Below are positions 9,743 through 53,612 of a stretch of DNA of 64,000 nucleotides, piece after piece. How positions within the stretch are numbered: the stretch's first letter is position 1; each line of letters begins with the position of its first letter. The DNA is taken from assembly GCA_002869845.2 (NCBI GenBank), contig NEWS02000007.1, positions 195,320 to 259,319 of the forward strand. Reading direction: 5' to 3'. A program made the position numbers and the translations under genes. The notes beneath the pieces were generated by a model. The model saw only the letters and a list, made by a program, of their open reading frames with translations, did no database searches and was not told the origin of the DNA. This DNA comes from Nitrospira sp. CG24B. Its GTDB lineage: Bacteria; Nitrospirota; Nitrospiria; Nitrospirales; Nitrospiraceae.

Positions 9743-9787
9743 TTGACACCGTCTTATCGTACGTCTAGTATACGTACGATAAGACGG
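9743..9787 (+). promoter_or_regulatory. vapBC promoter and overlapping palindromic operator
   Basis: TTGACA (9743-9748) and TAGTAT (9766-9771) are spaced by 17 bp. A perfect inverted repeat covers spacer, -10 and start region: CCGTCTTATCGTACGT (9749-9764), 7-nt centre, ACGTACGATAAGACGG (9772-9787). Such a site is expected for autorepression by the antitoxin-toxin complex. Its left part also abuts the upstream end of the divergent uvrA promoter. Confidence 0.85.
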
Positions 9788-9796
9788 AGAGATAAT

Positions 9797-10066
9797 ATGC
9801 CCAAGGCCGCACTAAAAAAAGAAAAGTGGACGCTCTCGTTCGATCCGGCGCTGAAAAGCGTCGTGGTCAAGGCCGCTAAGCGTAGGGGAATGTATCCTGT
9901 GACTCTGCTTGAAAGTCTCGTGCGGGAAAAATTCAACCCGTATGGGCATACGGACGTAGACGACAGTGCCGCTTATGTCAGCGCGTTGCGGAAGCAGGGC
10001 CGCAAACAGTCCGATGATGCGTTTCTGAACGAGATTGAAGCATGGCAAAAATCTCGCTCCTCTTAG
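9797..10066 (+). CDS. VapB-type antitoxin
   Basis: An 89-aa protein starting MPKAALKKEKWTLSFDP. A short beta strand (KWTLSF) followed by two helices (ALKSVVVKAAKRRGM, PVTLLESLVREKFN) fits a ribbon-helix-helix DNA-binding fold; the acidic and polar C-terminal half would bind the toxin. ATG at 9797 follows GGAGAGAT. Its last 25 bases overlap the toxin gene, which implies translational coupling. The operator immediately upstream supports autoregulation. It is assigned as antitoxin mainly because of its partner. Confidence 0.85.
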   Translation: MPKAALKKEKWTLSFDPALKSVVVKAAKRRGMYPVTLLESLVREKFNPYGHTDVDDSAAYVSALRKQGRKQSDDAFLNEIEAWQKSRSS

Positions 10067-10416
10067 ATACCGACATTTTCATCGATTACTTCAATACTGG
10101 CCGGTTCCATACATTGTTCGATTCCAGCCGTTTCACGGTCTACTATTCAGCCATCACGAAAAAGGAACTCTTGACCAAGCCAGGGCTCCGTGACAACGAA
10201 CGCGCCTCCATTCTGGCCGAACTGGCCCAATGCCGCCTGATCACGCTTTCCGATTCCATCACCACACGATACTCCGACCTTCGCCGCCAACACCCGTCAC
10301 TTGAGAAAGGCGATGCCCTCATTGCCGCCACCGCCCTCGTCAAACACCTTCCCCTGATGACACGAAACAAACGGCACTTTCAAATAGTCCCCGGCTTGAC
10401 GCTATTCGGGGAGTAA
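10042..10416 (+). CDS. VapC-type PIN-domain toxin ribonuclease
   Basis: A 124-aa PIN domain. The acidic residues expected for metal binding are visible: D9 and D11 in LLLDTDIFID, E42 in KKELL, D91 in GDALIAATAL, followed by MTRNKRHF, typical of the last PIN strand. VapC toxins cut RNA, often tRNA or rRNA, when freed from the antitoxin. It overlaps the antitoxin gene by 25 bp and ends only 10 bp from the converging GHKL ATPase gene, with no terminator visible between them. Confidence 0.9.
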   Translation: MAKISLLLDTDIFIDYFNTGRFHTLFDSSRFTVYYSAITKKELLTKPGLRDNERASILAELAQCRLITLSDSITTRYSDLRRQHPSLEKGDALIAATALVKHLPLMTRNKRHFQIVPGLTLFGE

Positions 10417-15785: not shown

Positions 15786-16562
15786 ATGGTGGGAACCGAC
15801 CCTCGTCCATTGACACAGGATTCCAAGGCCCCGGCGAAGGTGGTGTCCACCTGGTCCGGCCAGGCCCGCGAAGATGCCGTACAGCGGATGTTCACCTCCA
15901 TCGCCGGCGTCTACGACCTGAACAACACGCTGTTGAGTTTCGGCCTGCATTACCATTGGAAGAAGATTACCGCGTCCTTCATTACCCCCGTCGGACGGGG
16001 GACCGCGCTCGATGTCGGATCCGGTACGGCCGACCTTGCCCTCCTGCTCGAGTCTCGAATGGGACCCAAGGGACGTGTGATCGCATCAGACCTGAACTAT
16101 GCGATGCTGGCCGAAGGCCTCAAGAAGATCGGTGGCAAAGGACTCACCGACAAAGTCACCTGCTTGCAGGCCAGTGCGGAACACCTGGGGTTCGGGGACA
16201 ACACCTTCGATGCAGTCACTACCGGCTTTTGCATGCGAAACGTCGGGGATTTACCAGGCGCCGTGCGGGAAATTCGCCGTGTCATGAAGCCCGGTGGGCG
16301 CTTTGTGTGCTTGGAGTTTTCGCGTCCGGTATTCGGTTGGTTACGAACCTTGTATGATTGGTATTCGTTCAAACTGCTGCCCTGGGTCGGCACCATCGTC
16401 GCCCGTGATCGCACCGGCGTCTACGAGTACCTTCCCGCGTCCATCCGGACATTTCCCGACCAAGAACGGTTATGCCAGGTTCTACGCGATGCCGGGTTTC
16501 GTCAGGTGTCGTACAAAAACCTCAGCGGTGGCATTGTCGCCATTCATATCGCAACAAAATAG
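15786..16562 (+). CDS. MenG/UbiE-type quinone C-methyltransferase
   Basis: A 258-aa SAM-dependent methyltransferase of the family that methylates demethylmenaquinone (MenG) or the ubiquinone precursor (UbiE). Motifs: AREDAVQRMFTSIAGVYDLNN near the start, ALDVGSGTADLALLLE (motif I), GFCMRNVGDLPGAVREIRRVMKPGGRFVCLEFSRP (motifs II-III) and a C-terminal GGIVAIHIATK. A TTG at 15750 would add 12 residues; I prefer the ATG at 15786 though neither has a strong ribosome site. It is divergent from pdhA and 9 bp before a radical SAM gene, so it may be the first gene of the unusual cluster to its right. Confidence 0.87.
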   Translation: MVGTDPRPLTQDSKAPAKVVSTWSGQAREDAVQRMFTSIAGVYDLNNTLLSFGLHYHWKKITASFITPVGRGTALDVGSGTADLALLLESRMGPKGRVIASDLNYAMLAEGLKKIGGKGLTDKVTCLQASAEHLGFGDNTFDAVTTGFCMRNVGDLPGAVREIRRVMKPGGRFVCLEFSRPVFGWLRTLYDWYSFKLLPWVGTIVARDRTGVYEYLPASIRTFPDQERLCQVLRDAGFRQVSYKNLSGGIVAIHIATK

Positions 16563-16571
16563 CCATACGCC

Positions 16572-18194
16572 GTGAACTCAATCCTCTACGTTTTTCTTCC
16601 TTGCAAAAAGGTCTATCCCATTGGGATCACCTACTTGGCGGACTTTATCCACCGACGGAAACCGGAAGTACGCCAACAGATCCTTGACCTATCGCTGTTT
16701 CCCGTCTCGCAGCGCACTCAGGCTATCCGTGATGCCGCCACGGAGTTCAAACCGGACTTGGTCTGCTTTTCGTGGCGTGACATTCAGATCTTCTCGCCAC
16801 ATGAGGGTGATTCGTCGCTGGAGCATGCGTTCAACTTCTATTTCGCGAGTAACCCGATCAAGCGTGTCGCCGCTTCGTTCGCGGGTATCAAACAGCTATA
16901 CCGGTACTACAGCCATATCTATACGATCCTGTCCTATCCGGCCCTGATTCGCAAAGAACTCCCCAACGCGCAGATCATGATTGGAGGCGGAGCGTTCACC
17001 GCCTTTGCTGATCAACTCATTGAAAAGCTTCCGGAAGGCACGATCGGCATACTGGGCGAAGGGGAGGATGCAATCCTGAAACTTCTCGAGGGTCGTTCGA
17101 TCGAGGACGAACGTTACATCGTCAAAGAAGGCGGACGGACCCGAAAAGGCTCCCACGGTTCACCGGCGCTGCTTGATGCACCGGCTGTTGACCTCCCGTA
17201 TATAACTTCCATCTTTCCGCAGTGGAGGGAGTTCACAAGCGAATCGATCGGGGTTCAGTCGAAACGAGGCTGTCCCTATGATTGTGCCTTCTGTCTGTAT
17301 CCCTATATCGAGGGCAAGCGGGTACGTTACCGGCCACCGGAGATGGTCGTCAAAGACATCTCTCAGCATTATCATCAATGGGGAGCCCGTCGCTTTTGGT
17401 TTACCGACGCCCAGTTCATTACGGGCAAGGAAGCGTACCCGCAATGTACCGAGATCATGGAACGTATCATCAGTGAAAAGCTGGAGATCGAGTGGTCCGG
17501 CTATATTCGCACGTCGTTGATCACCCCTGAGTTTGCGAAGCTGATGGTCCGTTCTGGGGTCGGCGACTTGGAGGTGGCCATCACCTCCGGTTCACAGGAG
17601 GTCCTGAACAATCTCCACATGGGATTCAAGCTGGAACGCTTGTACGATGGCTGCCGCTATTTGGCAGAGGCCGGCTTCAAGGGCAAGGTCATCCTCAACT
17701 ATTCCCTCAATAGCCCTAAGGAGACGGAAGAGAGCCTGCTTCAAAGCGTCGAGTCCTACAAGATGGTGGCCTCGATTCTTGGCGAAGAGCGTGTGTTTCC
17801 ATTGATGTTTTTCTTAGGCATCCAGCCGAATACCGACCTGGAACAGCGCCTACTGGAAGAGGGGTATTTGTCGGCCGGCTATAACCCCTTGATGCTGACA
17901 CCAACCAGTATCAAGAAGCTTCTCTATAATCCTGCCCCCCTCAACAAGATTATCGCCAAGTCTTGTCTCCGCGCCTGGGAACGGAAGCAAGGTAGCCGCG
18001 ATCCCCGTCGATGGACCGGATCCCTGTCCCAGTCATCGGGCGAACCAGCCTATGCCGACCAAAACCTGAGCAGAGGAATCGAAGGCAATTCCGGGCGGGA
18101 CGCCTTGCTTTCGATCGAGGAAATCATCCGTTCCACCAGGCCAACCCCCTCGCCCTCACAGATGGCTGAACCAAGAACGACCTCTACCAGTTGA
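16572..18194 (+). CDS. radical SAM protein with N-terminal B12-binding-like domain
   Basis: A 540-aa protein. An N-terminal Rossmann-like region (1-170, with PDLVCFSWRDIQIF and IMIGGGAFTAFAD) resembles the cobalamin-binding half of B12-radical SAM enzymes, but the DxHxxG histidine motif is not visible. The radical SAM core has the cluster motif RGCPYDCAFC (C234, C238, C241). The last ~80 residues are Ser/Pro/Arg-rich and look disordered. GTG start at 16572, 9 bp after the methyltransferase gene, without a clear ribosome site. Reaction unknown; a methyl transfer or cofactor modification linked to the neighbouring quinone methyltransferase is conceivable. Confidence 0.82.
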   Translation: MNSILYVFLPCKKVYPIGITYLADFIHRRKPEVRQQILDLSLFPVSQRTQAIRDAATEFKPDLVCFSWRDIQIFSPHEGDSSLEHAFNFYFASNPIKRVAASFAGIKQLYRYYSHIYTILSYPALIRKELPNAQIMIGGGAFTAFADQLIEKLPEGTIGILGEGEDAILKLLEGRSIEDERYIVKEGGRTRKGSHGSPALLDAPAVDLPYITSIFPQWREFTSESIGVQSKRGCPYDCAFCLYPYIEGKRVRYRPPEMVVKDISQHYHQWGARRFWFTDAQFITGKEAYPQCTEIMERIISEKLEIEWSGYIRTSLITPEFAKLMVRSGVGDLEVAITSGSQEVLNNLHMGFKLERLYDGCRYLAEAGFKGKVILNYSLNSPKETEESLLQSVESYKMVASILGEERVFPLMFFLGIQPNTDLEQRLLEEGYLSAGYNPLMLTPTSIKKLLYNPAPLNKIIAKSCLRAWERKQGSRDPRRWTGSLSQSSGEPAYADQNLSRGIEGNSGRDALLSIEEIIRSTRPTPSPSQMAEPRTTSTS

Positions 18195-18263
18195 ATGGGC
18201 GCCATACGTCCTTCATTCACCACAAACACACCTCCTATACACTTGACGTGCCCTCCTCATACC

Positions 18264-18293
18264 TTGCATTCCCGTTTGAGCCAGTGCTATCAT
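18264..18293 (+). promoter_or_regulatory. possible promoter of the Usp-PCP_red gene
   Basis: TTGCAT (18264-18269) and TATCAT (18288-18293) are 18 bp apart, with a TG just before the -10. It lies in the 200-bp gap between the radical SAM gene and the Usp fusion gene. Confidence 0.35.
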
Positions 18294-18373
18294 TCCTCCT
18301 CTTTGAGGGAATTTTTAGCACGTTAATCATTTGAGTTTTCATACAATTACGACTCCTTTCCTCTGACTAACTC

Positions 18374-18390
18374 GCGCCTTAAGGAGGCGC
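18374..18390 (+). promoter_or_regulatory. ribosome site inside a small hairpin
   Basis: The strong Shine-Dalgarno AAGGAGG before the ATG at 18395 sits in GCGCCT-taagg-AGGCGC, a 6-bp stem. Folding would partly hide the site, so translation may be controlled. Confidence 0.4.
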
Positions 18391-18394
18391 CTCA

Positions 18395-20461
18395 ATGTAT
18401 AAGACAATCTATATTCCGGTCGATAACTCTGACCATTCGAATACAGCAGTGGATGTCGGCGTTCATTTGGCAAAAACCTTCGGTTCCCGGATCGTAGGGA
18501 GCCACGTCTACGCCGCGAAGATGCACGATAAGCGCTTCAAGCAGATGGAAGCGGGCCTCCCGGAGGAATACCATGACGAGAAGGAGCTTGACCGTCAGCG
18601 CCAGATCCACGATTCGCTGATTACCCGAGGGCTCCAAATCATCACTGACTCCTACCTCGACTACGTCGATAAGAAATGTAACGAAGCGAATCTCCCCGTT
18701 GAGCGGCGATCGCTCGAAGGACGTAACTGGAAAGTGCTGGCCGAAGACATCAACACCAACGGGTATGACCTCGTCATCATGGGCGCGTTGGGGGTCGGGG
18801 CGGTCAAAGACAGCGTCATCGGCAGCAACACAGAGCGCGTGGTCCGCCGGGTCCGTAACTCCGACATGCTGATCATCAAGAACGTTCAGCCAATAACCGG
18901 CGGAAAGATCGTCGTGGCTGTCGACGGCAGCCCCTACTCCTTCGGCGGACTGATGACCGGCCTAGCGCTGGGCAAGGCCTTCAACATGCCGGTGGAGGCG
19001 ATTTCAGCCTTCGATCCCTACTTCCACTATGCGGCATTCCACAGTATTTCCGGTGTCCTGAACGAAGAAGCCGGCAAAGTCTTTCGTTTCAAGGAACAAG
19101 AAAAACTGCACGAAGAAATCATCGACAGCGGCTTGGCTAAGATCTACCAGTCTCATTTGGACATTTCCCGAGAAATCGCCCAGGCCGAGCAAACGGATGT
19201 GAAAACGACGTTGCTGGACGGCAAAGCCTTCGAAAAAATCATTCAGTACGTCAGGAAAGATGTTCCTGCCTTGCTCATCATCGGGCGTATCGGCGTCCAT
19301 AGCGACGAGGACATGGACGTCGGCAGCAACACCGAGAATCTGTTGAGGAGCGCCCCCTGTAATGTGCTGATCTCCAACCGAAAATACGTGCCTCCGATCG
19401 ATACACAGGCCGAGTACACCATTGCCTGGACGGAAGAAGCGCTGCGGCGGATGGAAAAGATCCCGGTGTTCGCGCGCGGCGTGGCGAAGACGGCCATTCA
19501 TCGGTACGCCATTGAAAAAGGGCATACCATCATCAGTAATACCGTCGTTGACACCGCGATCGGACACATTCTTCCAAAAGGCGCCATGGACGCTATGCGT
19601 GCCCTTGGCGGTAGTTTGGACGCAGCGGGTATCGACCGTGACAAGATGCAAGCCGATGAGGGCGTGACCAAAGATCTCATGGGTCCGACATTGAGTGGAA
19701 TCATGACCCAGATCGTTGAGGAGAAACCCAAAGAGATCAGCGCCTCCACACAGGCCTACCTAGACCGCATGGGGCAAACCTATTTCGTCTGTGACGGCTG
19801 CGGCTACATTGGGAAGGGAGACAGCCCGGTCAAATGTCCGGTGTGCAGTGCGGATGGGACGAAATTCAAACAGGTCGATAAGAAGATTTTCGAAGTAGCC
19901 GCGACAACTGAAGGTGAATTGGAAACGGACGTGGCCTACGACGACGTGCCGATGCAATGGACCAAAGATGCAAAAGAAGCGATCCGTGCCGTGCCGGCTG
20001 GCTTCCAACGGAGACGTGCGAAGGCCAGGATTGAAAAGAGCGCGCGGAAATTAGGCATGACGACCATCACGCTTGAATATGCGGCGCCGACCATTCAAGA
20101 GGCCGCATCCGAAGACTATACGCCGATTTTCTCCAACAAAGGCACCGGTACCTCGCCGGTAGCGGAAGCCACCGTTGCAGCGTCGAACGGGAATGAGGCA
20201 AATGGTCATATCGAAGCCGCCTCACCCTACACCTGGACGGACGACGCACAAGCCAGATTGGATCGAGCTCCGGAAGGCTTCATGCGGGATTGCACCAGAT
20301 CGCTCATTCTCAAGCATGCCGAAAAAATCGGCGCGACCCTGATCACGATTGAGGTCGCCGATGAAGGGATCGAGCAGGCAAAGGGGTATATGGCCGAAGC
20401 GATGAAGACTGGCAATCTCAAGGACATGATTGCCGACCTCACCGGAAAAGGACGCGGATAA
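18395..20461 (+). CDS. double universal-stress protein fused to PCP_red domains and a zinc ribbon/rubredoxin-like knuckle
   Basis: A 688-aa fusion. Usp domain 1 (1-163) and Usp domain 2 (170-328) both keep the ATP-binding pattern G-2x-G-9x-G-S (G130/G133/G143; G297/G300/G310). They are followed by a PCP_red module (344-393, WTEEALRRMEKIPVFARGVA), a rubredoxin-like four-cysteine knuckle (C466, C469, C481, C484: CDGCGYIG, CPVCSADG), a second PCP_red-like module (521-565) and a third (613-662), separated by an Ala/Gly/Asn linker. PCP_red is known from the C-terminus of the dark protochlorophyllide reductase subunit BchB/ChlB. Cytoplasmic by sequence. Flanked by two radical SAM genes. I infer a stress- or redox-responsive scaffold; its function is unknown. 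Confidence 0.9.
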   Translation: MYKTIYIPVDNSDHSNTAVDVGVHLAKTFGSRIVGSHVYAAKMHDKRFKQMEAGLPEEYHDEKELDRQRQIHDSLITRGLQIITDSYLDYVDKKCNEANLPVERRSLEGRNWKVLAEDINTNGYDLVIMGALGVGAVKDSVIGSNTERVVRRVRNSDMLIIKNVQPITGGKIVVAVDGSPYSFGGLMTGLALGKAFNMPVEAISAFDPYFHYAAFHSISGVLNEEAGKVFRFKEQEKLHEEIIDSGLAKIYQSHLDISREIAQAEQTDVKTTLLDGKAFEKIIQYVRKDVPALLIIGRIGVHSDEDMDVGSNTENLLRSAPCNVLISNRKYVPPIDTQAEYTIAWTEEALRRMEKIPVFARGVAKTAIHRYAIEKGHTIISNTVVDTAIGHILPKGAMDAMRALGGSLDAAGIDRDKMQADEGVTKDLMGPTLSGIMTQIVEEKPKEISASTQAYLDRMGQTYFVCDGCGYIGKGDSPVKCPVCSADGTKFKQVDKKIFEVAATTEGELETDVAYDDVPMQWTKDAKEAIRAVPAGFQRRRAKARIEKSARKLGMTTITLEYAAPTIQEAASEDYTPIFSNKGTGTSPVAEATVAASNGNEANGHIEAASPYTWTDDAQARLDRAPEGFMRDCTRSLILKHAEKIGATLITIEVADEGIEQAKGYMAEAMKTGNLKDMIADLTGKGRG

Positions 20462-20544
20462 GTTTCGCATGCTGAGTTTTTGGTGCTGGCCCCCAGCGCC
20501 TTCCTCTGACGAGTCTTCGTTCTCAGCACCCGATACGATACACC

Positions 20545-21942
20545 ATGGGTAAATCTCTTCCCATCTTCAATGGTCCTTCAGGCGTCTTGGGCTCTTTGCA
20601 GCAACAAATTGCCCAGTTCTTCACCCCCACTCCAAAGGGGGAAGGGCCGTTTGATGGCCGGACGGTTGACGACTTCAAGCCCTACCTCGTTGCGCTGAAC
20701 CTGACCAAGCGTTGCAACCTCAAATGCGATCACTGTTATCTCGATGCGACGACCAAGGCAGCTGGTGGGGACGACGAGCTGAGCACCGAAGAGTGCTACC
20801 GGCTCATTGGACAGATCGCCGAAGTGAATAAGGGGTGTCTTCTCGTCATTACTGGTGGCGAACCACTGGTGCGTCCTGACATTCTCGACATTGCTCGTTA
20901 CGCCGTTAAACTTGGCTTTATGGTGGTCTTCGGCACAAACGGGATGCTGATCGATGACCAGATGGCCAAAGCGCTTGTAGAAATCGGCGTGATGGGAGTT
21001 GGCATCAGTATTGATTCATTGGACGCAGCGAAACACAATACTTTTCGTGGCGTTCCGGGAGCGTGGGAAGCGGCGATCGCCGGCATTGAAGCCAGCAAGC
21101 GGAATGGCCTTCAATTTCAAGTGCATTTCAGTGCTCAGCCGATGAACTATCGGGAGCTGCCTGAAGTCATTGACTGGGCGCACCGACTCGGCGCCCGCGT
21201 CCTGAACGTGTTCTTTATGGTGTGTACGGGACGAGGCGAAGAGCTGACGGATATCACTCCCGCTCAGTATGAAGAGGTCCTGGGCTACCTTGTTGAATGC
21301 CAAGATAATTACAAAGGCATGTTGGTCCGTGCCCGTTGCGCTCCACACTTCAAACGGTTGGCCTATGAGAAGGACCCGAACTCCCCGATCACGAAGGCGA
21401 CTGGATATATGGGGGGAGGATGCCTGGCAGGCACCAACTACGCCCGAGTGACCCCAAACGGTGAACTGACCCCCTGTCCCTATATGCCGCTGTCGGCAGG
21501 GAATATCCGTCAACAGAGCTTCGTTGATCTCTGGGAACGATCGGATATCTTCAACTCCTTTCGCTATCCCCAACTCAAGGGGAAATGTGGTGACTGCGAA
21601 TATACTGACATCTGCGGGGGGTGCCGCGCCCGTCCCTATGTCGACCACGGCGACTGGCTGGATGAAGATCAGTGGTGCCTCTACACCCCGAAAGGCGGCG
21701 AGAAAATTAAGGTGGCGTTCAATGTCTCGGAAGAGACCGATGTCGCGTGGGACGACGCGTCTGCTCTCCGATTGAGCCGTATCCCCTACTTCCTACGCGC
21801 GATGGTGAAGAAAGGCGTGGAAAAGCACGCCCGCGAAAACAATGTACTGCTTATCACCGTTGAACTCATGGAAGAGCTGCGCAAAAAACGATTCGGCAAT
21901 GACGCACCTGTCTTTAACTTTGACGTAAAGGGTAAGGGATAA
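20545..21942 (+). CDS. radical SAM/SPASM protein with C-terminal PCP_red domain
   Basis: A 465-aa protein. The radical SAM core has RCNLKCDHC (C57, C61, C64) and TGGEP (103-107). The SPASM-type C-terminal part has C293 and C311 (CLAGTNYARVTPNGELTPC) and CGDCEYTDICGGC (C348, C351, C357, C360) with C378, enough for auxiliary Fe-S clusters. Residues 400-448 (WDDASALRLSRIPYFLRAMV) form a PCP_red module like those in the preceding gene. The core resembles NirJ/AhbD-type enzymes acting on haem precursors or peptides. The shared module with the Usp fusion 84 bp upstream suggests joint action. Exact substrate unknown. Confidence 0.9.
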   Translation: MGKSLPIFNGPSGVLGSLQQQIAQFFTPTPKGEGPFDGRTVDDFKPYLVALNLTKRCNLKCDHCYLDATTKAAGGDDELSTEECYRLIGQIAEVNKGCLLVITGGEPLVRPDILDIARYAVKLGFMVVFGTNGMLIDDQMAKALVEIGVMGVGISIDSLDAAKHNTFRGVPGAWEAAIAGIEASKRNGLQFQVHFSAQPMNYRELPEVIDWAHRLGARVLNVFFMVCTGRGEELTDITPAQYEEVLGYLVECQDNYKGMLVRARCAPHFKRLAYEKDPNSPITKATGYMGGGCLAGTNYARVTPNGELTPCPYMPLSAGNIRQQSFVDLWERSDIFNSFRYPQLKGKCGDCEYTDICGGCRARPYVDHGDWLDEDQWCLYTPKGGEKIKVAFNVSEETDVAWDDASALRLSRIPYFLRAMVKKGVEKHARENNVLLITVELMEELRKKRFGNDAPVFNFDVKGKG

Positions 21943-22020
21943 GGCGTCAGGGATGAAGACCTAGAGGCCCATCCTCAAAGCCCCCACACTCCTTACGACT
22001 CTCTTCTGACTGGTTTCTAA

Positions 22021-22530
22021 ATGGACGCGCTCCAAAGTATCACCACCGATCTCAACACCCTCATTCCAATCGTCAATCACTGGTTTCATCTGCTTTCAGC
22101 GATCATTTGGATCGGCGGCTTGGCATTTCTCGTCATGGCGGTGACACCCGGACTGGAGAAAGCCGTTCCAAAGGATCAGATCAAACCCATCACGGATATT
22201 TTTTACCGGCACTACAAGAAAGTCGCCGGCATTCTCGTCGTCGTCCTACTGTTCACCGGCGGCGTGAATCTCCACTACGTCAATCAGGTCATTACGTCAC
22301 AAACGGGCAGCGGGATCCAGCACCACTCCAAGTACCTCATGGTCTTCATGATCAAGCTTCTTCTCGTGCTGGGGCTTCTCACACTGTTCCTCTACACAGT
22401 CATTTTCAAGTCAGACGATGAGGCCGAGGAGGGAGAGTCCTACGAGGTTATTCCATTCCAGCGCGCCGCCCTCTGGATGGGATTCTTCACTATCCTCTGC
22501 GCCGCCGCCATGAAGCACCTGCATCAATAA
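22021..22530 (+). CDS. CopD-like four-helix membrane protein
   Basis: A 169-aa inner-membrane protein with four predicted helices (about 20-42, 68-88, 105-128, 148-163). The first has HWFHLLSAIIWIGG, the histidine and W-x-G-G pattern of the CopD family; other histidines are H85, H101-H102, H165 and H167, which could bind haem or copper. It starts 78 bp after the radical SAM/SPASM gene and probably belongs to the same unit. It may be a membrane redox or metal partner of the soluble proteins. Confidence 0.8.
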   Translation: MDALQSITTDLNTLIPIVNHWFHLLSAIIWIGGLAFLVMAVTPGLEKAVPKDQIKPITDIFYRHYKKVAGILVVVLLFTGGVNLHYVNQVITSQTGSGIQHHSKYLMVFMIKLLLVLGLLTLFLYTVIFKSDDEAEEGESYEVIPFQRAALWMGFFTILCAAAMKHLHQ

Positions 22531-23478: not shown

Positions 23479-24237
23479 TCACTTAGACCGGCTGAGGCCT
23501 AGTGCGCGCTTGAAGACGGCGGCGAAGCCGAAATAGCCGAATGAATCTTTGAGGTTCGAATAGAGCCGCTTGACGGTACCCATCTCCGGATTGGTGACAT
23601 ACTCCATTGTTAAGGCAATCCGCTCCTCACCCTCTCCGAGAGGCGTGACCGCATGCCAGAGTTTATCACCGTTGAAAATCACCATATCCCCAGGCTCAGT
23701 CACGAGCTCAAGATGGCGGGACTGTTTGGTCGGATGGTCCTTGAACAGCTCGCACACCAGCTTGCACTGGGTTGACCGATCGACAAGCCCCATCAGAATC
23801 GTGTAGCGAGCGCCCTTGTAGTATGACGTATCGTAGTGGAACCCAATGTGGTCACCCGGTTCAGTGTAATAGTAGAGGGCGCAGGAATGGGGATCGTTGG
23901 CCGGGCAGAACATCAGTTTTGCCTCAACGAGCCGGTTCAGGAATGCCCGGAATGACTCGGACCGATAGAGGTCGAGAAAGCGAGGGGCTTTCTCCTGCAC
24001 GGTATAATAACTGACGCTCCCGCCCTTCTTATGGCCAGGAATGTAGTTTCGATTGAGTTCCGCTTTCACGCCCTGGGCCTGAGGAACAAACACCTCCTCA
24101 ACGAAAGCTCGGGGCAAGAACTGCTTGATGACGAGGAACTCGTTCTGATCCCAATATTCTTGGTGAAGCCGGTCGAAATCCAAGGCGGTGACCGCTTGCG
24201 AGACCCTGTCCGTCACATTGCTCACAAGACTCTGCAC
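23479..24237 (-). CDS. 2-oxoglutarate/Fe(II)-dependent dioxygenase
   Basis: A 252-aa double-stranded beta-helix enzyme. The iron ligands are visible as HYDTSYY (HxD) and the distal His in DKLWHAVTPLGEGEERIALTMEY, whose Arg would hold 2-oxoglutarate. The N-terminal part is helical with LDFDRLHQEYWDQNEFLVIKQFLP, typical of the proline- or phytanoyl-hydroxylase-like branch. A GTG at 24237 starts the frame, with weak GAG upstream. Substrate not predictable. Downstream of lolA in the same direction but separated by 112 bp of repeats. Confidence 0.8.
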   Translation of the reverse strand: MQSLVSNVTDRVSQAVTALDFDRLHQEYWDQNEFLVIKQFLPRAFVEEVFVPQAQGVKAELNRNYIPGHKKGGSVSYYTVQEKAPRFLDLYRSESFRAFLNRLVEAKLMFCPANDPHSCALYYYTEPGDHIGFHYDTSYYKGARYTILMGLVDRSTQCKLVCELFKDHPTKQSRHLELVTEPGDMVIFNGDKLWHAVTPLGEGEERIALTMEYVTNPEMGTVKRLYSNLKDSFGYFGFAAVFKRALGLSRSK

Positions 24238-52544: not shown

Positions 52545-52597
52545 GGGAACACGTTGGAATTGACGGACGAGAAGCTTCGTCCAGTTAGAGTGTTCCC
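52545..52597. terminator. nested hairpins between converging genes
   Basis: GGGAACAC (52545) pairs with GTGTTCCC (52590), enclosing GGACGA-gaagct-TCGTCC (52565-52582). It spans the 3' end of the PCP_red-repeat gene and lies after the 106-aa gene. A two-way transcription stop is plausible. Confidence 0.4.
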
Positions 52598-53586
52598 TCG
52601 CCTTTGAGATAGTTGCGGAAACGATCCATGAGCTCGACTCCCAGAGTCCCGCCGTCAGGCTTCTTAGTCGATGGATCAGCAAAGTGTCCACGGATTTCCT
52701 GAAGGCGTTTCTCCGCCTGATCATTCCCCTGCAGGCGCTTGGTTTTCTTCAAGGCGGTTTCGAAGGCATCGAAGGTCAATTCATGATAGCCGAACGAGCG
52801 GATACGCTTGACGGCTTTCATCATCGCCTGATTCCGAAACGTCGTCAGATGGTCTGAATCGATTTCTTTCAATCCCAGCTTGCGCGCTCGCCGTTCCGCT
52901 GCTTTGCGGATACCGCTACGGACAAAATCAGGAGAAGTTTGAAGCCGCTTCCAGGCTTCATCCGTCCAGGCCATTCGTTCCTGCGGTGCTTCCCAGAGTT
53001 CATGCAGGATCTGTTCATCGATGCGGGTGAGGCCCCGTTCTCTAGCCAGATCCTCACTATCTCGTTTCAGCATATCCGTCACAAAGTCCATTGCGATGGG
53101 AGGGGAGTGCTTTAACTTGTCTTGCAGTAGCGCCACGGCTTCCTCGGTCCATTCCATCGTGAGGCCGCCCTCCTCGTGGAGGTCACCAAGCGCTTCCACT
53201 TTTTCAAATAACTCGACATTTACTTCAAGATGCCCCCGTTCCTTCGCAATTTCCTCCGTAATCTGCTTGATCATCGCGCGCATGAACTCGGGTACCATGC
53301 CCAACCGTTCTTTCGCGGCGGCGGTCCATGGCAGGCGGCCATTGGCCATCTCTTCGACAGCGGAGGCCATACCGGCCTCACCGCCCATGCGTCCCATCAT
53401 CTGTCCCTTAAACTGCTCAAGAATCTCCTCGGTGATTTGCTCGTACCCCAATTCTCGCGCTTTCGTTTCAGCCAAGCGGCGGACCATGCCACGCAGAAAT
53501 ATTGGGGCGCGCTCCATGCGTTTGAGAGCACCGTCTGTCCAGCGGACGTCCGTGGTATTCGCCTGCGAAGAATCTGATACCGACAT
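52585..53586 (-). CDS. protein of four or five tandem PCP_red-like modules
   Basis: A 333-aa protein. Modules start at W16 (WTDGALKRMERAPIFLRGMV), W87 (WTAAAKERLGMVPEFMRAMI), W146 (WTEEAVALLQ...) and W207 (WTDEAWKRLQTSPDFVRSGI), each with a basic helix ending A-R-E-x-G or A-R-K-L-G; a partial fifth lies near 252-285. No catalytic residues, signal or membrane segment. Each unit matches the small domain at the C-terminus of dark protochlorophyllide reductase BchB. Last in the pheA-to-ihf run, 26 bp after the HU/IHF gene. ATG at 53586 follows GAAAGGGGA. Nucleic-acid or Fe-S protein binding is conceivable; function unknown. Confidence 0.85.
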   Translation of the reverse strand: MSVSDSSQANTTDVRWTDGALKRMERAPIFLRGMVRRLAETKARELGYEQITEEILEQFKGQMMGRMGGEAGMASAVEEMANGRLPWTAAAKERLGMVPEFMRAMIKQITEEIAKERGHLEVNVELFEKVEALGDLHEEGGLTMEWTEEAVALLQDKLKHSPPIAMDFVTDMLKRDSEDLARERGLTRIDEQILHELWEAPQERMAWTDEAWKRLQTSPDFVRSGIRKAAERRARKLGLKEIDSDHLTTFRNQAMMKAVKRIRSFGYHELTFDAFETALKKTKRLQGNDQAEKRLQEIRGHFADPSTKKPDGGTLGVELMDRFRNYLKGEGTL

Positions 53587-53612
53587 GGATTCCCCTTTCA
53601 ACCAGACAATCG

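Follow-up and report, generated by a model that had tools for sequence, protein, structure and literature searches.

Organization of the locus

The present analysis concerns five genes at positions 15786–22530 of a 64,000-nucleotide stretch of DNA from Nitrospira sp. CG24B (contig NEWS02000007.1), referred to at its full length as the window. The genome to which it belongs (G000; Nitrospirota) comprises 3.14 Mb in 20 contigs and is 90.5% complete. All five open reading frames (ORFs) are intact, the gaps between successive ORFs being 9, 200, 83, and 78 bases, and the domains that a sequence-only reading had assigned to their products are matched by Pfam or NCBIfam profiles. The locus is composed of two gene sets lying side by side, each with its own distribution. 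Module 1 includes mpqE and the gene of a B12-binding radical S-adenosylmethionine (SAM) protein. Module 2 includes the genes of a tandem Usp protein and a second radical SAM protein, both carrying PCP_red domains, and of a CopD-like membrane protein; a further gene of the window, encoding four PCP_red domains, is counted with it. Across many bacteria, module 2 is inherited almost strictly together with a bd-like oxidase. The features are as follows.

15786–16562, forward strand: mpqE, UbiE-type C-methyltransferase of methyl-plastoquinone biosynthesis (NF052510, 401 bits; cut-off 335); module 1
16572–18194, forward strand: B12-binding radical SAM protein of the slr0320 family (NF045585, 445.5 bits), candidate quinone-ring methylase, found only with mpqE; module 1
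18293–18310, forward strand: terminator-like hairpin followed by ATTTTTAG, between modules 1 and 2 (consensus scan)
18395–20461, forward strand: protein with tandem Usp, PCP_red, a rubredoxin-like knuckle, and two further PCP_red domains (Pfam; Foldseek match to tandem Usp; 83 of 198 phylum genomes); module 2
19427–19558, forward strand: PCP_red domain 1 of the Usp protein (PF08369, 53.1 bits)
19784–19870, forward strand: four-cysteine rubredoxin-like knuckle of the Usp protein (RUBY_RBDX, 25.2 bits, residues 464–492)
19958–20077, forward strand: PCP_red domain 2 of the Usp protein (PF08369, 41.6 bits)
20234–20362, forward strand: PCP_red domain 3 of the Usp protein (PF08369, 35.7 bits)
20545–21942, forward strand: AhbD-like radical SAM/SPASM protein with a C-terminal PCP_red domain (TIGR04055, 322.9 bits; TIGR04545, 315.6 bits), in a clade of its own; module 2
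21748–21882, forward strand: PCP_red domain of the radical SAM protein (PF08369, 50.9 bits)
22021–22530, forward strand: CopD/DUF4149-like membrane protein (Pfam), adjoining in Nitrospiria and Poribacteria, there without HemY alongside; module 2
52585–53601, reverse strand: protein of four PCP_red domains, relatives of which adjoin or are fused to the radical SAM-PCP protein elsewhere; counted with module 2

The terminator-like hairpin lies in the 200 bases that part the B12 radical SAM gene from the Usp gene; shuffled sequences give similar numbers of such sites, so that it is suggestive only.

Gene order was inspected in 40 Nitrospirota loci, and presence was counted in 198 Nitrospirota genomes. 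The order mpqE, B12 radical SAM, Usp-PCP, radical SAM-PCP, CopD-like is complete only in the family of the window, and a named collection shows it in loci of Nitrospira and relatives. Other families of the class, among them the sister family, keep just the last three genes together, while in other Nitrospirota classes the pair of Usp(-PCP) and radical SAM-PCP genes persists. The order is too strongly conserved for the arrangement to be due to chance. The sister family has the genes of modules 1 and 2 apart; families f10 and f18 contain the mpqE/B12 radical SAM pair without the Usp protein, and f11, f15, f25, f26, f27, and f30 contain the Usp protein without the B12 pair. Based on this separation and these different distributions, we reject a single five-gene system, mpqE and the B12 radical SAM gene being a pair by themselves. 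The accompanying proposal of a link between the Usp-PCP_red and radical SAM-PCP_red proteins is supported, as their genes are neighbours across Nitrospirota and in many other phyla.

Co-inheritance of module 2 with bd-like oxidases

The bd-like protein is a distant relative of CydA (PF01654, 51–63 bits), and its gene stands with those of cytochromes c and an EB_dh-type cytochrome. Two reports describe a cluster of bd-like oxidase and alternative NxrC in Nitrospira, Nitrospina, and anammox bacteria (PMC6606698, PMC3578206), and a third names the counterpart in Manganitrophaceae TO_1 (PMC9040806). Our bd-like profile was equated with these bd-like/alt-NxrC/TO_1 clusters on grounds of composition and copy number rather than of accession. 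Four copies are present in most genomes of the window's family.

The bd-like profile matches 84 of the 198 genomes and the Usp protein is present in 83, with both in 81; that is, 81 of the 86 genomes having either trait have both (Fisher p 4e-49 overall). Outside the class the corresponding table reads 18, 2, 1, 112 (Fisher p 4e-19). Within f11, f15, f17, f25, f26, f27, and f30, the two traits are concordant in 36 of 39 listed genomes, a value reached by 0 of 200,000 within-family shuffles. The exceptions are G002 and G008 with the Usp protein only, and G187, G163, and G025 with the bd-like protein only; G163 has the radical SAM-PCP gene. This strong coupling had been missed by the sequence-only reading.

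Beyond the phylum, a radical SAM-PCP alignment was searched against 84,980 species genomes and the best 80 matches were taken as relatives. They come from anammox planctomycetes, Nitrospinota, Pseudomonadota, Gemmatimonadota, Myxococcota, Chloroflexota, Poribacteria, Acidobacteriota, and others. A bd-like match was found in 46 of 50 carriers in other phyla; these carriers have no matched non-carriers, and the control is provided by Nitrospirota, with a bd-like match in 3 of 115 genomes lacking the Usp protein. In the 42 loci of the best 80 with at least 6 kb of flank on each side, the neighbours of the radical SAM-PCP gene include Usp (34), bd-like (17), a type II dimethyl sulfoxide (DMSO) reductase haem b-like cytochrome (16), and CopD-like genes (13). 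Even distant phyla keep this neighbourhood, i.e., bd-like, cytochromes c, the type II DMSO reductase haem b-like cytochrome (alt-NxrC type), Usp-PCP, and radical SAM-PCP. In five Nitrospinota loci (L126, L127, L129, L134, L145) no Usp gene lies next to the radical SAM-PCP gene, which is accompanied by another conserved set of neighbours (clusters c13, c19, c23–c25). A literature search, conducted mostly without subscription papers, found no description of module 2.

On contig C15 of G000 (L189:13474–17014), a gene for a double PCP_red protein of 167 residues has a single gene between it and a bd-like gene. Its strand-run also includes two bd-like genes, two resembling FGE-sulfatases, and DUF3047, DUF420, cytochrome c, and EB_dh-type genes.

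The radical SAM-PCP protein and the haem b routes

The product of 20545–21942 contains Radical_SAM, SPASM, and one PCP_red domain (Pfam), and nearly all members of its family bear a PCP_red. Its top NCBIfam models are NirJ2 and AhbD, in that order, both scoring below their 500-bit cut-offs. The three radical SAM cysteines (CxxxCxxC), eight auxiliary cysteines, and three histidines are common to 98 module proteins and 10 AhbD, the cysteines being invariant or nearly so. In a quick unrooted tree, a fully supported branch (100*) parts the module proteins from all sampled AhbD-like paralogues of the phylum, including the AhbD of the same genomes. The predicted model (mean predicted local distance difference test score 77) has a terminal three-helix PCP_red domain, and the nearest solved folds are PqqE and SuiB.

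AhbD converts two propionates of coproheme to vinyls, and NirJ removes propionates in the formation of haem d1 (PMC7242693). No nir operon was seen alongside the radical SAM-PCP gene in the loci inspected, a genome-wide search not having been made. In most genomes of the class, HemH and HemY are encoded adjacently elsewhere in the genome, and of the 34 class genomes searched, 32 have ChdC; G119 and G131, which are without it, retain the radical SAM-PCP gene. Family f17 has HemN (above 630 bits) together with HemH and HemY, and f11 has an AhbD above its cut-off. Module 2 therefore occurs beside each of the known haem b routes, of the ChdC, HemN, and AhbD types, which argues that the radical SAM-PCP protein is not an ordinary haem synthase; given also its clade apart from AhbD, we regard ordinary haem b synthesis as unlikely.

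Two irregularities in haem genes were also observed. In nine genomes of the sister family f2 (G065, G081, G125, G133, G137, G173, G179, G187, G191) there is no match to ferrochelatase PF00762, although every one of them has HemY and all eight searched for ChdC have it; their ferrochelatase is either highly divergent or replaced. G000 itself yields no HemY and a weak match for HemH (5.7e-23), whereas relatives have both side by side; an assembly gap is the probable cause.

The Usp-PCP protein and PCP_red domains

The product of 18395–20461 contains two Usp domains, three PCP_red domains, and a C-x2-C...C-x2-C knuckle, whose RUBY_RBDX score is marginally below the cut-off of 26.5 bits. By eye, both Usp domains include the ATP motif G-2x-G-9x-G(S/T), and the N-terminal half of the predicted model matches the ATP-bound tandem Usp TTHA0350 (3ab8; Foldseek TM 0.85 by target). 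The protein is thus a tandem Usp of the ATP type, two folds with the motif, and is predicted to bind ATP. Histidines H37, H44, H72, H211, H239, and H302 are invariant across the two Usp domains. The number of PCP_red copies ranges from none (f25, f26, f27, f30) to several, and in some families of the class the Usp protein reaches about 900 residues, with extra knuckles and PCP_red domains.

PCP_red finds its match at the C-terminal end of subunit B of protochlorophyllide reductase (3aek, E value 0.004), and a match to TIGR01278 is restricted to the PCP_red part (profile positions 455–507). Relatives of the four-PCP_red protein are fused to radical SAM-PCP in L066 and adjacent to it in L057–L060. 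PF08369 is also found once per genome, as a single PCP_red domain protein, in f10 and f18 (G001, G010, G011, G020, G028, and others), which are without the bd-like protein, so the domain alone is not specific to the module 2 system. In L165:88–990 and similar loci of Gemmatimonadota, Poribacteria, and others, a P-loop iron-sulfur carrier of Mrp/NUBPL type and a small single PCP_red protein are encoded upstream of the module.

The CopD-like gene and protoporphyrinogen oxidase neighbours

The product of 22021–22530 matches DUF4149 (25.1 bits, over the cut-off of 24.6) and, under the cut-off of 32.1, CopD (PF05425, 24.3 bits); it has no HemJ match in Pfam at an E value of 0.01. In many relatives of module 2 the next gene encodes the protoporphyrinogen oxidase HemY (TIGR00562, 304, 230, and 270 bits in three loci; cut-off 97.85), which strengthens the link to tetrapyrroles; in the window this position is occupied by the CopD-like gene. 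HemY is directly beside the module in Nitrospirota f17 and, among the best 80 matches, near it in 19 of 23 Pseudomonadota loci, while a CopD-like gene adjoins the module in 14 of the 18 loci from Nitrospirota and in all 5 from Poribacteria. Locus by locus, the two never occur together among these 80. This mutual exclusion hints, but no more, that the CopD-like protein might do a job comparable to that of protoporphyrinogen oxidase, by analogy of position. In Poribacteria (L162:9357–10499 and others) a dioxygenase-like gene and one for a small conserved protein (clusters c37 and c26) follow the radical SAM-PCP gene in the place of HemY. We claim no special HemY for the module, as in a tree of neighbour and housekeeping sequences the module HemY do not form one clean clade.

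Proposed function of module 2

From the almost strict co-inheritance, module 2 probably makes or delivers the haem-type cofactor of the bd-like oxidase. On balance, we favour the explanation that the bd-like oxidase/alt-NxrC complexes rely on module 2 and the four-PCP_red protein to have their tetrapyrrole cofactor made, tailored, or delivered. The sequence-only reading had left the choice between a tetrapyrrole, a quinone, and a metal cofactor. Of these, a tetrapyrrole is likely for module 2, which combines an AhbD relative, PCP_red of the BchB type, and a protoporphyrinogen oxidase neighbour in relatives. In the proposed working, the AhbD-like radical SAM enzyme would act on an iron porphyrin in the manner of AhbD and NirJ, removing or altering propionate side chains. 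The ring would be supplied by a porphyrinogen oxidase, which could be HemY in relatives; in this genome it could be a HemY of the housekeeping kind or, possibly, the CopD-like protein of the membrane. The PCP_red domains would hold the tetrapyrrole or dock partners, and the tandem Usp would bind ATP and serve as scaffold or sensor. The rubredoxin-like knuckle of the Usp protein may pass electrons, while the CopD-like protein may oxidise the product or hand it on at the membrane.

A more specific version is that module 2 makes a new modified haem, whose propionates are altered or whose ring is reduced, dedicated to the quinol-independent bd-like oxidases of nitrite oxidisers, anammox bacteria, and others, and that the Usp-PCP_red proteins are tetrapyrrole carriers. 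This we put forward tentatively, as possible but doubtful.

Several points weigh against a cofactor role for module 2. We know of no modified haem in bd-like oxidases. Most Nitrospinota and two Brocadia loci have no adjoining Usp gene, no HemY adjoins the module in Nitrospiria, and 4 of the 50 outside carriers are without a bd-like match, perhaps because their genomes are incomplete. The sampled genomes are related, so that the Fisher values overstate the association, and co-occurrence is not biochemistry. Finally, conserved haem b ligands have been noted in Nitrospina (PMC3578206), so ordinary haem might suffice.

In the next explanation, the radical SAM-PCP protein would provide ordinary haem b for the haem-rich respiratory chain when ChdC or HemN cannot keep up, acting as a second coproheme decarboxylase that is independent of oxygen. 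ChdC requires peroxide, and the retention of the AhbD cysteines and histidines, like that of the radical SAM-PCP gene in the two class genomes without ChdC, would agree with such a role. It would, however, be redundant where a true AhbD (f11) or HemN, HemH, and HemY (f17) are present, and the protein forms a separate clade and follows the bd-like oxidases rather than the haem route; we therefore hold this to be unlikely. Still less probable is a protein or peptide maturase, in which the SPASM enzyme would modify the bd-like oxidase or a cytochrome with PCP_red recruiting the substrate. The fold nearest to PqqE and SuiB and the strict tie to one membrane protein family would fit, but the two best family matches are haem enzymes, no conserved small precursor gene was found in the neighbourhoods (ORFs below 70–90 residues outside the gene calls), and the adjoining HemY finds no place in this scheme.

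Since the carriers include Nitrospira, Nitrospina, and anammox bacteria and NarG-like genes are near some loci, module 2 could instead serve nitrite oxidoreductase. NarG-like genes, however, are nearby in 5 of the 42 full-flank loci as against 17 for bd-like genes. Carriers also include Gemmatimonadota, Poribacteria, and Pseudomonadota, for which, to our knowledge, there is no general link with nitrite oxidation. According to one report, Manganitrophaceae have bd-like oxidases without nitrification genes (PMC9040806). The link to nitrite oxidoreductase alone is weaker than that to bd-like oxidases and was rejected, and we consider this role very improbable. A single stress-gated cofactor pathway made up of all five genes is scarcely credible, for the order kept in the window's family is outweighed by families with either set alone and by the separation in the sister family, distributions that largely refute it, and 'stress-gated' rests solely on the Usp name.

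A gene set co-inherited almost strictly with bd-like oxidases offers a way to approach how these are assembled and which cofactor they use, in bacteria driving nitrification and anammox, and PCP_red is predicted to have a non-photosynthetic role. In two reports the bd-like oxidases are called enigmatic, and Nitrospira, lacking a canonical haem-copper oxidase, has one bd-like protein as its proposed terminal oxidase (PMC6606698, PMC3578206).

Module 1 and methyl-plastoquinone

Module 1 (15786–18194) is proposed to methylate the ring of an unusual respiratory quinone, methyl-plastoquinone, which is made by Nitrospira (PMC12324825). For the B12-binding radical SAM product of 16572–18194 the nearest family is rSAM_slr0320, whose 775-bit cut-off is reached by none of the sampled Nitrospirota proteins. 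Among the 198 genomes, mpqE is found above 300 bits in 97 and the B12 radical SAM family in 92, all of them with mpqE (92 of 97 genomes with mpqE, 0 of 101 without; Fisher p 5e-51). By coordinates the two genes are neighbours in most carriers and apart in a few families of the class (e.g., G139, G175, G183). Among control genomes, the B12 radical SAM family occurs only in Synechococcus, a plastoquinone maker. In Synechocystis, transfer from QA to QB is slower in a mutant of Slr0320, and the study that reports it brought up quinone methylation (PMC8065906). Taken together, the strict co-occurrence with mpqE, the sole control carrier, the quinone of Nitrospira, and the Slr0320 phenotype make this neighbour of mpqE a good candidate for a ring methylation common to plastoquinone and methyl-plastoquinone.

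Other genes of the window

At 23479–24237 (reverse strand) lies the gene of a 2-oxoglutarate/Fe(II) oxygenase-like protein near halogenase HalD; several genera of the family conserve it downstream of the cluster. At 9743–10416 (forward strand) a small two-gene unit resembles, by eye, an antitoxin and PIN-type toxin pair.

Comparison with known systems

In module 1, the first gene is the MpqE of the methyl-plastoquinone pathway MpqA-E (PMC13386864, PMC12324825), while the B12 radical SAM gene is absent from a published list of MpqA-E. The latter product belongs to the same family as Slr0320 (PMC8065906), although it scores below the 775-bit cut-off.

The radical SAM-PCP protein shares with AhbD, the haem b synthase of the siroheme-dependent pathway, the radical SAM/SPASM architecture, every Fe-S cysteine, and the three histidines. 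It differs in its C-terminal PCP_red, its score (315.6 versus 500 bits), its separate clade, and the presence of a true AhbD in the same genomes. NirJ/NirJ2 of haem d1 biosynthesis provides its best NCBIfam model (322.9 bits), below the 500-bit cut-off. Subunit B of dark-operative protochlorophyllide oxidoreductase (BchB/ChlB) has the C-terminal PCP_red domain in common with the module proteins, in which there is no nitrogenase-like catalytic part and PCP_red is fused to Usp, to radical SAM, or to itself. The bd-like oxidase/alternative NxrC clusters, with a CydA-like protein, cytochromes c, and a haem b-type gamma subunit, are the proposed partner complex. In the passages searched, the reports on these clusters name no maturation genes (PMC6606698, PMC3578206, PMC9040806), and the Usp/radical SAM-PCP module is our proposed addition to them.

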